This document shows, piece after piece, positions 11,446-15,163 of a stretch of DNA of 32,234 nucleotides. The position numbers and the translations under genes were made by a program. The notes beneath the pieces are model-generated. The model did not search any database. It saw only the letters and a list, made by a program, of their open reading frames with translations, and was not told the origin of the DNA. This DNA is from Myxococcales bacterium. Its GTDB lineage: Bacteria > Myxococcota > Myxococcia > Myxococcales > JAJYLH01. The stretch is from positions 1 through 32,234 of the forward strand of contig JAJYLH010000060.1 in the NCBI GenBank assembly GCA_021787845.1. The letters run 5' to 3'. Each line of letters opens with the position of its first letter. The first letter of the stretch is position 1.

Positions 11446-11973
11446 TCACTCGTCGAACAGCTTGAGCTGTCTGGCGCCGCCGCCGGAAGGCAGGAGCTGC
11501 CGGGCGAGGCTCGACTCCCGGCGGAAGAATCCTTCGGTGTGGAAGGTGTCGGTCAGGTCGAAGAGCTCGAAATCCAGGTGGTGGCAGAGCTCGTGAAGGA
11601 GCGTCCGGGTGAACGTGCGCAGCGCGACCGGCTGTTCGTGGGCGGCGGTGCGCATCCAGACCTGGACGAGAGGGGTCTTGCCCTCCTCGCGGGTGTAGAG
11701 CCCGTGCAGCTCGGCGTTCTCGCTTGACGGCCGCCGCGCGAGCACCTGCGTGCGCACTTGCGGCACCCGGAGCATCGAAAGCATCGTCGCCGCGAACGAC
11801 CGCACCGCCCGCCCGACCGCCGTTCGGTCGTCCGCCTCGAGCCCGACGCGAATCGCGTCCAAGCTCGGCAGGAGCGCCGCCGGCTCGGGCAGCGCGACGG
11901 AGGTGATCGCGTCGCTCTTGCGATAGGTCGCCTTCTGCGCGCGGTTCAGGTGCTCGTAGTAGCCGAACGGCAT
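11446..11973 (-). CDS. SprT-like zinc metallopeptidase domain protein
   Basis: 175 residues with no signal peptide, so probably cytoplasmic. The zinc-protease signature H127-E-L-C-H131 sits in LLHELCHHLDFELFDLTD, followed by H145-T-E-G-F-F; H145 or E148 may supply the third zinc ligand. The length and a single C-terminal HExxH resemble SprT/WSS1-type or small minigluzincin-like proteins, but the flanking sequence is not clearly any named family. It follows the GYPxCC protein by 36 bp on the same strand, so the two are probably cotranscribed. That pair is divergent from a radical SAM gene, so a role in processing a product of that system is conceivable but is inference. The ATG is preceded by GAAGG with almost no spacing, so the start is less sure. 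Confidence 0.7.
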   Translation of the reverse strand: MPFGYYEHLNRAQKATYRKSDAITSVALPEPAALLPSLDAIRVGLEADDRTAVGRAVRSFAATMLSMLRVPQVRTQVLARRPSSENAELHGLYTREEGKTPLVQVWMRTAAHEQPVALRTFTRTLLHELCHHLDFELFDLTDTFHTEGFFRRESSLARQLLPSGGGARQLKLFDE

Positions 11974-12009
11974 CCTTCGCCAAGGCTAACCCACCCGGGC
12001 AAGGCAGCC

Positions 12010-12912
12010 TCACGGACCCGGCGCGACGAAGCGCAAGGCGACCGGGGGGAAGCGCTCCCGCTTGCCGCGCTCGACCGTTCCGTCCGCGAGCACCCGCGCG
12101 CCCACGCAGCTCTGAGCGAGGGCCACGTCGCCTTCCACCGGCGCCAGGCTCCCCTCGGGGTGCTCCGGCCCGTGCGCCTCGACGATGCGGTCGCCTTCCA
12201 GCTCGACGATCGCGCGTGCGTGATCGGCGGCGGCCACGACGGTGACCGCGAGCTGCTGGAGGAGCCCCGCACCGGCGCCCGGCTCGACGCGGTCCAGCTC
12301 CGCCAGCAGCAGGTCCGCCTGGGCGAGCGCGGCCGGGCAGTCGTAGCGGCAGGGCGTGTACGACAGGAGCTTGACGCCCGCGCGAAAGAGCAGGTGGTTC
12401 AGCCGCGCGTCCGCCCGGGGCGTCCAGTTCTCGCGCGCGACCACATAGTCGTCCGAATTCTCCGTCGGACGGCGCCGCAGGCGGCAGCCGAGAGAGCCCC
12501 GAAAGCGGCGGCTCGGCGCGCCCCGGAGCCGTTCGGCGAACGCTTCGACGCAGCAATCGGGGTAGCCGAGCCCGCGACCGATGGCGATCGCTTCCTCGGC
12601 GTGCACGCTCGGTTTCGGGTGCGGGCCGCGACGAATCAGCTTGCGCTCGAGCTCGGCGAGCGCTTGGGCCTCCTGGGGGCTATGCGCGACGAAGAGCGCG
12701 CCACCCCGCGCGGTGCGCTCCCGGAATACCCGCGGGCTCGGCCGTCTCGGATTGCCCCCCCGCTCTTCGGGCAGCTCGACGAACGCCAGATGGCCGCCGA
12801 CCGCCAGGTAATGCGCGCCGGCCGCCGCGAGGTCGGCGCCGGAGACGGTCAAGCGCACCGCCGGCTTCAGCCCGGCTCGGAACGCGAGGTACTCGAGATC
12901 CCGCCCGGGCAC
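12010..12912 (-). CDS. GYPxCC-motif protein (DUF483-like), partner of radical SAM gene
   Basis: About 300 residues from GTG 12912; no upstream ATG or good ribosome binding site exists, so the start is tentative. A conserved-looking cysteine motif L-G-Y-P-D-C120-C121-V-E-A-F is followed about 65 residues later by Y-T-P-C188-R-Y-D-C192. From memory, GYPxCC followed by a PCxxxC motif is characteristic of DUF483 and related proteins of unknown function; this was not checked. The four cysteines could bind a metal or iron-sulphur cluster. The C-terminal third (residues 220-300) looks like an antiparallel beta domain. The gene is divergent from the radical SAM enzyme across 123 bp and is followed closely by the HELCH metallopeptidase. 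The long frame continuing upstream to 14703 is antisense to the radical SAM gene and is not coding. Confidence 0.7.
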   Translation of the reverse strand: MPGRDLEYLAFRAGLKPAVRLTVSGADLAAAGAHYLAVGGHLAFVELPEERGGNPRRPSPRVFRERTARGGALFVAHSPQEAQALAELERKLIRRGPHPKPSVHAEEAIAIGRGLGYPDCCVEAFAERLRGAPSRRFRGSLGCRLRRRPTENSDDYVVARENWTPRADARLNHLLFRAGVKLLSYTPCRYDCPAALAQADLLLAELDRVEPGAGAGLLQQLAVTVVAAADHARAIVELEGDRIVEAHGPEHPEGSLAPVEGDVALAQSCVGARVLADGTVERGKRERFPPVALRFVAPGP

Positions 12913-13035
12913 GCTGCTGTCGATAGCACGGCGTCTTCTGGCCCGCACCGCCGGTCCTCGTCGATTCGCCGCGGGGCAGGAGGGCGGCAGCGCTCGACCT
13001 CGCCGGAAAGCCCGGCCGATGTTACGGTCGCGCTC

Positions 13036-14679
13036 GTGCCGGATTCCGCCGAGACGCGGGCATTCACCTTGCTCCTGGAGATGCGCTGCAACAACTACTG
13101 CATCTTCTGCGGCCAGCGCGAGGTCGACGAGGCGCTCGTCAAGAGCCGGCAGCGGCTCGGCCTTTCCGTGCCGCGCACCAGCTTCGGCGACCGGCGCGGC
13201 CGCTACACGCTCCAGTCGGCGACCGAGACGCTCACCCGGGCGCGCGCCGAAGGCTTCACGTTCCTGCGCATCCAGGGCGGTGAGCCGACCCTCTTCCCGC
13301 AGCTCGCCGAGGTCGTCGCCGTCGCCCGCGAGCTGGGGTTCACGTTCGTCAACGTCGTCACCAACGGCCGCAAGCTCAAAGAGCCCGCGTTCACCCGGGC
13401 GCTCATCGCGTCGGGCCTGGACAGCATCAGCTTCTCGATGGTGGGCGCCGACGCCGAAACGCACGACGCGCTCTGCGGCGTGGCGGGCGCGTTCGACGAT
13501 CTGCTCGCGGGGATGCGTCAGGCGGCGGCCGCCGCCAGCGAGCTCGGGCGCCAGGTTCACCTCGATGCGAACGTCATCACCTCGGCGAACAACGTCGAAC
13601 GTCTGTTCGAGCAGGTGCGGCTGCTCGCGAGCCTCGGCGTCGAGGCGGCCATCGTCCACCTCGTCGATTTCTCGGGGCTCGCCGACGACCCGAAAGTGCG
13701 CGAGAAGCTCGAGTTCGACATCCGGCGCATCACGCCCGCCCTCGCGCGGGCCCAAGAAGATGCGAACCGGCTCGGGTTGCGGCTGCACGCGGACAGCGTG
13801 CCGCTGTGTCTGAGGCCGCGATTGCAAGCGAGCGACGTCGAGAGAATCGGCCTTCTCACCGCGGTCGCGCCGCGCCGGTTCGAGGCGGCGGCCTTCACCT
13901 ACGTCCCTGGAAAGGAGCGGCCGCGCCTCGCGTGCTGCGAGCCGTGCCTCCTGCGCAACGCCTGCCGCCGCGTGCCGCCCGAGTACTGGCCCGACGACCC
14001 CGCGCTGGCGTTCCGGCCGATCAACGCGCGCACCGTCGGCGAGGATGTCGACTGCGTTCTGGCCGAGGTCAATCCCGCGGCGCCGAAGACGGTGGATGAG
14101 CTGCTCGATCTCGAGCGTGCTCTCGACCTCCTGCGACGTTCCTTCGGCGTGGCCAACGAGCTCGCGCCTTCGATCGACCGGCTGCGAGGCGCGTACGCCG
14201 ACCTCCTTTTGCTCGCGATTTCCCGCCACGACGCGAAGTTCGCCGGCGCCGCCTTCGCCGCCCACGTCGGGCTCGGTCCCGTCGACCGCTTCGAGATCGG
14301 TCACGCCGTCCAGCCGATGTTGGAGATGAACGCCGCCGAGCTCGCGCGGAAGACGGGAGCGGTCCCGGCAAGCTTCGCGCCGGGCGCGTGGCGCTTGCGC
14401 TTCGACCACGGCTTCGAGCTGGCGGTGGACGGCGAGCGCGCGCCTTCCGGCGAGCTGCGGGTTCGCGCTCTGACCCCGATTCTGGCGCCGGTCCAGAGCC
14501 CCGTCGCTCGCGTCACCCGCGCGCTCTTTCTCGGGTTCGTCGCCGGCCGCCTGCGGGACGTGCGCCGGCTCCTGCTGGCGCCGGAAGCTCTCGACGGCGA
14601 CCACGGCCGCGGTTTCGTGCGCCTGTTCGTGCCGCTGCGCGAGGGCGCCGTCCGACTCGAGCACGCCGCCGGCCAGTAG
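13036..14679 (+). CDS. radical SAM enzyme with auxiliary cysteine cluster
   Basis: 547 residues from GTG 13036, the last start codon before the catalytic motif. C18-N-N-Y-C22-I-F-C25 is the CxxxCxxC site that binds the [4Fe-4S] cluster and SAM, and G81-G-E-P84 is the SAM amino-group motif. The barrel runs to about residue 240 (features such as NVVTNGR and DSISFSMVGAD). A second set, C258 in PLCLRPR and then C300-C301-xx-C304-x5-C310, looks like a SPASM/twitch-type auxiliary cluster. Such clusters are common in enzymes that modify peptides or proteins. The 230-residue C-terminal part, helical and then beta-rich, is not recognised. No obvious precursor peptide is adjacent. The divergent GYPxCC protein and the metallopeptidase are its likely functional neighbours. 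The exact reaction is unknown. Confidence 0.85.
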   Translation: MPDSAETRAFTLLLEMRCNNYCIFCGQREVDEALVKSRQRLGLSVPRTSFGDRRGRYTLQSATETLTRARAEGFTFLRIQGGEPTLFPQLAEVVAVARELGFTFVNVVTNGRKLKEPAFTRALIASGLDSISFSMVGADAETHDALCGVAGAFDDLLAGMRQAAAAASELGRQVHLDANVITSANNVERLFEQVRLLASLGVEAAIVHLVDFSGLADDPKVREKLEFDIRRITPALARAQEDANRLGLRLHADSVPLCLRPRLQASDVERIGLLTAVAPRRFEAAAFTYVPGKERPRLACCEPCLLRNACRRVPPEYWPDDPALAFRPINARTVGEDVDCVLAEVNPAAPKTVDELLDLERALDLLRRSFGVANELAPSIDRLRGAYADLLLLAISRHDAKFAGAAFAAHVGLGPVDRFEIGHAVQPMLEMNAAELARKTGAVPASFAPGAWRLRFDHGFELAVDGERAPSGELRVRALTPILAPVQSPVARVTRALFLGFVAGRLRDVRRLLLAPEALDGDHGRGFVRLFVPLREGAVRLEHAAGQ

Positions 14680-14818: not shown

Positions 14819-15163
14819 ATGAAGGGCTTCACGAAGGGACTGCTCGCAGCAGGGCTGCTCGCTCTTTCGGCTCCGGCCATGGCGGCCATGCCGAACAGCA
14901 ACATGAAGCCGGAGATGAACCAGCAGACCAGCGCGTACCCGGGCACCATCAAGAGCGTGAACGCGTCCAAGGACACGGTGACCCTCGAGGTGCCGCTGGC
15001 GCCGGGCGCCACCATCCTGAAGAACGGGCAGAACGTGTCGCTCAAGCAGATCAAGCAGGGCGACGAGGTGCGCGCGAGCTTCGACCCGATGACGCACGAG
15101 ATCATGAAGCTCGACGTGCACTCGAAGGGCATGAAGGGCACCAAGAGCAGCTCGGGCTACTAG
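14819..15163 (+). CDS. small exported beta-barrel-like protein
   Basis: 114 residues from ATG 14819, preceded by GGGGGA. Residues 1-22 are a signal peptide (LLALSAPAMA then AMPNS). The mature protein has a Met/Asn/Gln-rich start, then a compact beta-rich domain: GTIKSVNASKDTVTLEV, an NGQNVSLKQIKQGDEVRASF segment and EIMKLDVHS. It resembles the small OB-like barrels of CusF, DUF1344 or DUF5666 proteins (GxIxSVD...TVTL...IKxGDxV), which suggests ligand or metal binding in the periplasm. A Ser/Gly/Lys tail ends the chain. It is monocistronic, with an intrinsic terminator 22 bp downstream. Confidence 0.8.
   Translation: MKGFTKGLLAAGLLALSAPAMAAMPNSNMKPEMNQQTSAYPGTIKSVNASKDTVTLEVPLAPGATILKNGQNVSLKQIKQGDEVRASFDPMTHEIMKLDVHSKGMKGTKSSSGY

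Follow-up and report, generated by a model that had tools for sequence, protein, structure and literature searches.

The window analysed here is a 32,234-nucleotide stretch of DNA from a Myxococcales bacterium, with a GC content of about 70%. Between positions 11446 and 14679 it holds three genes: one encoding a radical SAM (rSAM) enzyme, one encoding a protein with GYPDCC and PCRYDC motifs (hereafter the GYPxCC protein) that faces the rSAM gene divergently, and one encoding a putative zincin with the motif HELCH, which lies 36 bp behind the GYPxCC stop on the same strand (Table 1). Although long spurious frames overlap these genes, each of the three is backed by homologues. An earlier sequence-only reading of this DNA had given the same genes, motifs and spacing, and our coordinates agree with it throughout. 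The divergent rSAM/GYPxCC gene order recurs in two other loci that we collected (L020 and L028). Directly downstream of the rSAM gene, and on the same strand, is a gene for a 114-residue secreted-looking protein (14819-15163) with weak CusF-like similarity, which may be a substrate of the enzyme.

Table 1. Features of the locus, in window coordinates
Feature	Position	Strand	Remarks
HELCH putative zincin	11446-11973	-	175 aa; probably a bystander
GYPxCC protein	12010-12912	-	300 aa, GTG start; DUF483-like rSAM partner
PCRYDC motif, residues 187-192	12337-12354	-	C188 and C192 identical in 20/20 family members
GYPDCC motif, residues 116-121	12550-12567	-	G116, P118, C120 and C121 identical in 20/20 family members
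Intergenic region between GYPxCC and rSAM starts	12913-13035		123 bp, divergent (from the coordinates)
rSAM protein	13036-14679	+	547 aa, GTG start
CX3CX2C motif, SAM-binding [4Fe-4S] cluster (C18, C22, C25)	13087-13110	+	From sequence; aligned in relatives from L020 and L033
C258, likely first ligand of an auxiliary cluster	13807-13809	+	Conserved in L020 and L033
CCxxCxxxxxC (C300, C301, C304, C310)	13933-13965	+	C301, C304 and C310 conserved in alignment, C300 not

The rSAM protein belongs to the radical SAM superfamily, matching PF04055 at 50.9 bits (E=2.7e-13), above the cut-off of 29.5. With residues counted from the GTG start at 13036, the three cysteines of the SAM-binding motif lie where the sequence-only reading had placed them. 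The second set of five cysteines in that reading is also present, but C300 is not conserved in the relatives from L020 and L033. The other four are kept in these two proteins, the two relatives aligned, and their conservation fits a single predicted auxiliary cluster; a Twitch-type enzyme would be expected to have four conserved cysteine ligands after the barrel. The top-scoring NCBIfam profiles were HxsC4 (77 bits) and HxsC (TIGR03977; 61.6 bits against a curated cut-off of 267.9), both below cut-off, and a Pfam search at E up to 1 gave no match to SPASM (PF13186). We describe the enzyme as HxsC/Twitch-like. For its C-terminal extension, some 235 residues long, we found no match and, among the collected loci, no relative.

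In a phylogenetic tree the window enzyme clusters with an rSAM protein encoded beside an HxsA gene elsewhere in its own genome (L033:9598-11307, contig C104) and with proteins from L034 and L020 (support 0.988). The gene for the L020 protein also faces a GYPxCC gene divergently. The window enzyme has local similarity to two profiles, MoaA and BlsE, and to the structure of the latter protein, as might be expected if it made a small-molecule cofactor or metabolite and had no role in peptide modification. However, the MoaA and BlsE profile scores are far below their cut-offs and its three nearest neighbours in the tree include one encoded beside HxsA and one beside GYPxCC, and we regard a small-molecule product as unlikely. 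Among 195 Myxococcota genomes, its own apart, we detected no close orthologue of the rSAM protein (E up to 1e-40). We therefore assessed conservation through the GYPxCC protein.

The window GYPxCC protein scored 20.7 bits against PF04467 (DUF483), below the 25-bit gathering cut-off, and had no match in NCBIfam. Relatives that align with it do pass the PF04467 cut-off (L007, L024, L027, L077, L084 and the viral L135). In a 20-member family alignment the four cysteines of the CC and CxxxC elements (C120, C121, C188 and C192) are invariant. We found the family in 14/195 surveyed Myxococcota genomes, at 13 loci from a scan of 84,980 species genomes and at six loci in viral contigs, the viral loci being reached only when the family alignment was used as the query; a tblastn search of phage records with the window protein gave no match. 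The window's own genome has three further copies.

Structure prediction gave a confident model of the GYPxCC protein (AlphaFold2, pLDDT 84.6, pTM 0.84). Foldseek returned no match to this model at E up to 0.001, its best E-value being 0.024. A second structure aligner placed residues 1-130 on PG1857 (2guk; Z 10.6, 105 of 111 residues, rmsd 2.8), and the family profile pairs LGYPxC collinearly with LGYDIC of PG1857, with an E-value of only 0.12; the resemblance to PG1857 thus comes from the second aligner and one collinear motif. A resemblance of the model to NleE (Z 7.8) was set aside as within the range of common arrangements. The C-terminal half folded alone had no PDB match above Z 2.1, which is not proof of a new fold. 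Radical SAM enzymes commonly take electrons from flavodoxin-like donors. The PG1857 gene lies in an operon with a flavodoxin and is induced under iron limitation (PMC10434189). A redox role for the GYPxCC protein is therefore attractive, and our guess is that it could act as a redox or metal-site partner.

We examined whether the pairing of rSAM and GYPxCC genes extends beyond the window, using a locally built profile to call rSAM domains. Of 34 other GYPxCC loci, from myxobacteria, other bacteria and the six viral contigs, 25 have an rSAM gene no more than about 5.4 kb away. The pairing is found at 8/13 loci from the species-genome scan, 11/13 from the Myxococcota survey and 6/6 viral loci, although four of the viral loci form two near-identical pairs, leaving four independent cases. 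By the same profile 9 of the 34 loci, some of them on short contigs, had no rSAM gene. These include two loci with other GYPxCC copies of the window's own genome, although a neighbour in L006 has a sub-threshold match to PF04055. As a background, 19 stretches totalling 352 kb, all from GYPxCC-bearing genomes, contained no rSAM domain. One protein, in L027, is a natural fusion that carries both PF04055 and PF04467. Thus, as the sequence-only reading had anticipated, the two proteins belong together, and the pairing is conserved across bacteria of several phyla and also in viruses. The enzyme and its DUF483-like partner form a real, conserved module, and its two genes adjoin each other in the window. 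At two loci the rSAM-like protein beside or fused to GYPxCC departs from CX3CX2C in having its first cluster cysteine about 27 residues before CxxC (L006:5277-7103 and L020:10848-13436).

The same pairing has been published for the Thermus phages Cumys and phiMa, with fusions noted, and DNA modification was suggested for the phage locus; prophage versions, and cyanobacterial loci in a deazapurine context, were also described (PMC11437467). The module could accordingly modify DNA or a nucleotide, its nearness to peptide systems reflecting reuse of a general rSAM partner. Besides that proposal and the cyanobacterial context, a nucleic-acid substrate is favoured by the finding of GYPxCC proteins on viral contigs, including a protein whose C-terminal part resembles a methyltransferase. 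However, the viral partner rSAM proteins score best against profiles of peptide or protein maturases, all below cut-off, and the myxobacterial relatives sit with His-Xaa-Ser (HXS) genes, aKG-HExxH beta-hydroxylases and short precursors. We therefore consider a DNA or nucleotide target improbable. The viral protein with the methyltransferase-like part (L140:7590-8981) agrees with a published note of such fusions.

A different possibility is that the rSAM enzyme acts on the GYPxCC protein itself, cross-linking or oxidizing its invariant cysteines by analogy with quinohemoprotein subunits that are modified by their rSAM enzyme. Such a role would explain why a protein that otherwise varies widely, and whose gene mostly lies beside an rSAM gene, keeps four cysteines unchanged. 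It is harder to reconcile with the fusion of the protein to an rSAM domain, with the presence of several copies per genome and with the precursors encoded beside GYPxCC in relatives, and we think it has little chance of being correct.

The sequence-only reading had proposed the HELCH metallopeptidase as a third component, which would process the product of the rSAM/GYPxCC pair, and the position of its gene directly behind the GYPxCC gene on the same strand would suit that role. However, HELCH homologues are present in 53/189 Myxococcota genomes (the best with about 50% identity), whereas GYPxCC occurs in only 14/195. The neighbours vary across the nine HELCH loci that we inspected, including, from our reading of the sequences, an M1-type aminopeptidase and an SRP protein, and no rSAM or GYPxCC gene was seen in the short flanks of these nine homologues. 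Conversely, no HELCH homologue was found in the 15 other GYPxCC loci that were compared first. The HELCH protein is below threshold for both SprT-like (PF10263; 14.0 versus 25.6 bits) and WLM (PF08325; 15.4 versus 26 bits) families. Its sole NCBIfam match is TIGR04338, with 19.1 bits against 90, and it does not match TIGR04267, the family of the aKG-HExxH beta-hydroxylases found in some GYPxCC operons. Because its homologues are widespread with differing neighbours, and because the HExxH proteins of GYPxCC operons are of another family, the HELCH gene is probably an unrelated bystander. We rejected a three-gene system because of the independent distribution and unrelated neighbours of HELCH, and rate it as very improbable; a local functional link to the pair may exist in this genome.

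The distribution of GYPxCC points instead to HXS systems. With an E-value limit of 1e-60, HxsB was called in 41/195 Myxococcota genomes, and in 31 of these it exceeds the cut-off. It is present in 13/14 genomes with GYPxCC and in 28/181 without (Fisher p=3.4e-9), and the same co-occurrence holds when counted by genus (10/11 versus 9/79; p=1.6e-7). HxsD is likewise found in 10/14 GYPxCC genomes (p=1.7e-6). The association could partly reflect genomes that are rich in rSAM enzymes. The genes are also physically close: GYPxCC lies within 15 kb of HxsB in eight genomes, comprising seven survey genomes, in which the distance is 1.6-14 kb and the nearby HxsB is below cut-off in four (G053, G115, G125 and G127), and that of L030, where two GYPxCC genes occur together with an HxsB (520 bits) and a 16-repeat HxsA. 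In L025 a GYPxCC gene adjoins an HxsA of 14 repeats. Some other GYPxCC loci, such as L031 and L032, have many rSAM genes and no HXS markers that we recognised. The rSAM and DUF483-like module is probably linked to HXS systems in myxobacteria.

The window itself contains no HXS gene and no HxS repeat, and it therefore does not belong to an HXS cassette, in which HxsA, HxsB and HxsD lie beside an HxsC-type rSAM gene. Such genes are found elsewhere in the same genome, with two HxsA genes and HxsD on contig C104 and HxsB on contig C58; no HxsB or HxsD hit is on contig C37. The two HxsA-type genes (L033:11351-12097 and 12197-12745 (-)) encode proteins with His-Xaa-Ser in uninterrupted runs of 59 and 35 copies, almost always as HGS and ending in HGSW, and lie inside an rSAM-rich island.

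A survey of small ORFs gave no convincing precursor peptide in the window, as the sequence-only reading had noted; some GYPxCC relatives, by comparison, sit inside peptide-modification clusters with precursor peptides, and the window's own genome has the HxsA genes described above. In L029 and L086 the GYPxCC operon includes a gene for an aKG-HExxH peptide beta-hydroxylase (TIGR04267). Short ORFs of 63-69 residues ending in HSS(H/Y)xDGDG(W/F)I (L085:9144-9353, L086:12576-12767 and L088:12659-12850) lie near a conserved set of an HxsB-like rSAM enzyme, a second rSAM enzyme, an aKG-HExxH beta-hydroxylase and GYPxCC. They are candidate RiPP precursors, unplaced as to group. A 60-residue ORF near HxsB and two GYPxCC genes (L079:3678-3860) ends in HASHASGSKHNSITH and is a candidate short precursor of the His-Xaa-Ser type.

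A small recurring domain was also seen near these loci (L033:7778-8551, L020:9324-9836, L025:4287-4691 and L028:11073-11384), in some cases with TAT-like or lipoprotein-like N-termini. It is also C-terminal in the GYPxCC proteins of L081, L082 and L084, weakly so in L081 and L084, and had no Pfam match in the instances tested, from L020, L030 and L033.

Given the conserved pairing and the precursors in relatives, the earlier idea of a peptide- or protein-modification system is reasonable for the rSAM and GYPxCC proteins, but does not extend to the peptidase. We somewhat favour a two-protein maturation module that is most likely a satellite of HXS peptide- or protein-modification systems. The rSAM enzyme, with its SAM-binding cluster and one auxiliary cluster, would alter residues in a ribosomal peptide or protein. 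Its GYPxCC partner would hold a metal or Fe-S centre through C120, C121, C188 and C192 and assist the enzyme either in redox chemistry or by presenting the substrate. That substrate would be encoded away from the pair, the first candidates being the (HGS)n HxsA precursors on C104, and the HELCH protein would stand outside the module. A broader version, to which we give appreciably less credence while ranking it above the other alternatives, is that GYPxCC/DUF483 proteins are general metal-carrying redox partners needed by many rSAM maturases, including those of HXS systems, and that a flavodoxin-type donor docks through the PG1857-like domain.

On that broader reading, GYPxCC/DUF483 proteins would be a component of rSAM peptide modification that has so far been missed. 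HXS systems were named from genome comparison, and our literature search found no paper on their chemistry and no published link of GYPxCC/DUF483 to them. A DUF483-like family tied to HXS and other rSAM clusters would provide a concrete missing component for reconstituting such systems, and would set a testable hypothesis against the DNA modification suggested for the phage module.

Comparison with known systems places the locus between several of them. It shares with the Thermus phage module (PMC11437467) an rSAM gene that adjoins a gene for a DUF483-type protein, with fusions and with prophage and cyanobacterial versions reported there, but the window pair is chromosomal in Myxococcota, divergently arranged and HXS-associated in relatives, whereas the phage study suggests DNA modification. 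The pairing itself is thus already known; what is added here is its association with HXS systems, the finding of precursors in relatives, and the exclusion of HELCH from the module. The HXS system (HxsA/B/C/D; TIGR03976, TIGR03977, TIGR03978) resembles the locus in that HxsC4 and HxsC are the best profiles of the window enzyme, HxsB tends to be found in the same genomes as GYPxCC and close to it, and the window's genome has HxsA, HxsB and HxsD; it differs in that the window is without HxsA, HxsB and HxsD and its enzyme is below the HxsC cut-off. The TIGR04267 beta-hydroxylase operons likewise bring together rSAM, GYPxCC and HExxH proteins (L029 and L085/L086/L088), but their HExxH protein is of a family that the HELCH protein does not match. 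Finally, DUF2023/PG1857 appears to share the fold of the N-terminal domain (Z 10.6), and has the collinear LGYxxC motif in common with the GYPxCC protein, but at 120 residues it is without the second half that bears PCRYDC, and its gene is operonic with flavodoxin and not with an rSAM enzyme.
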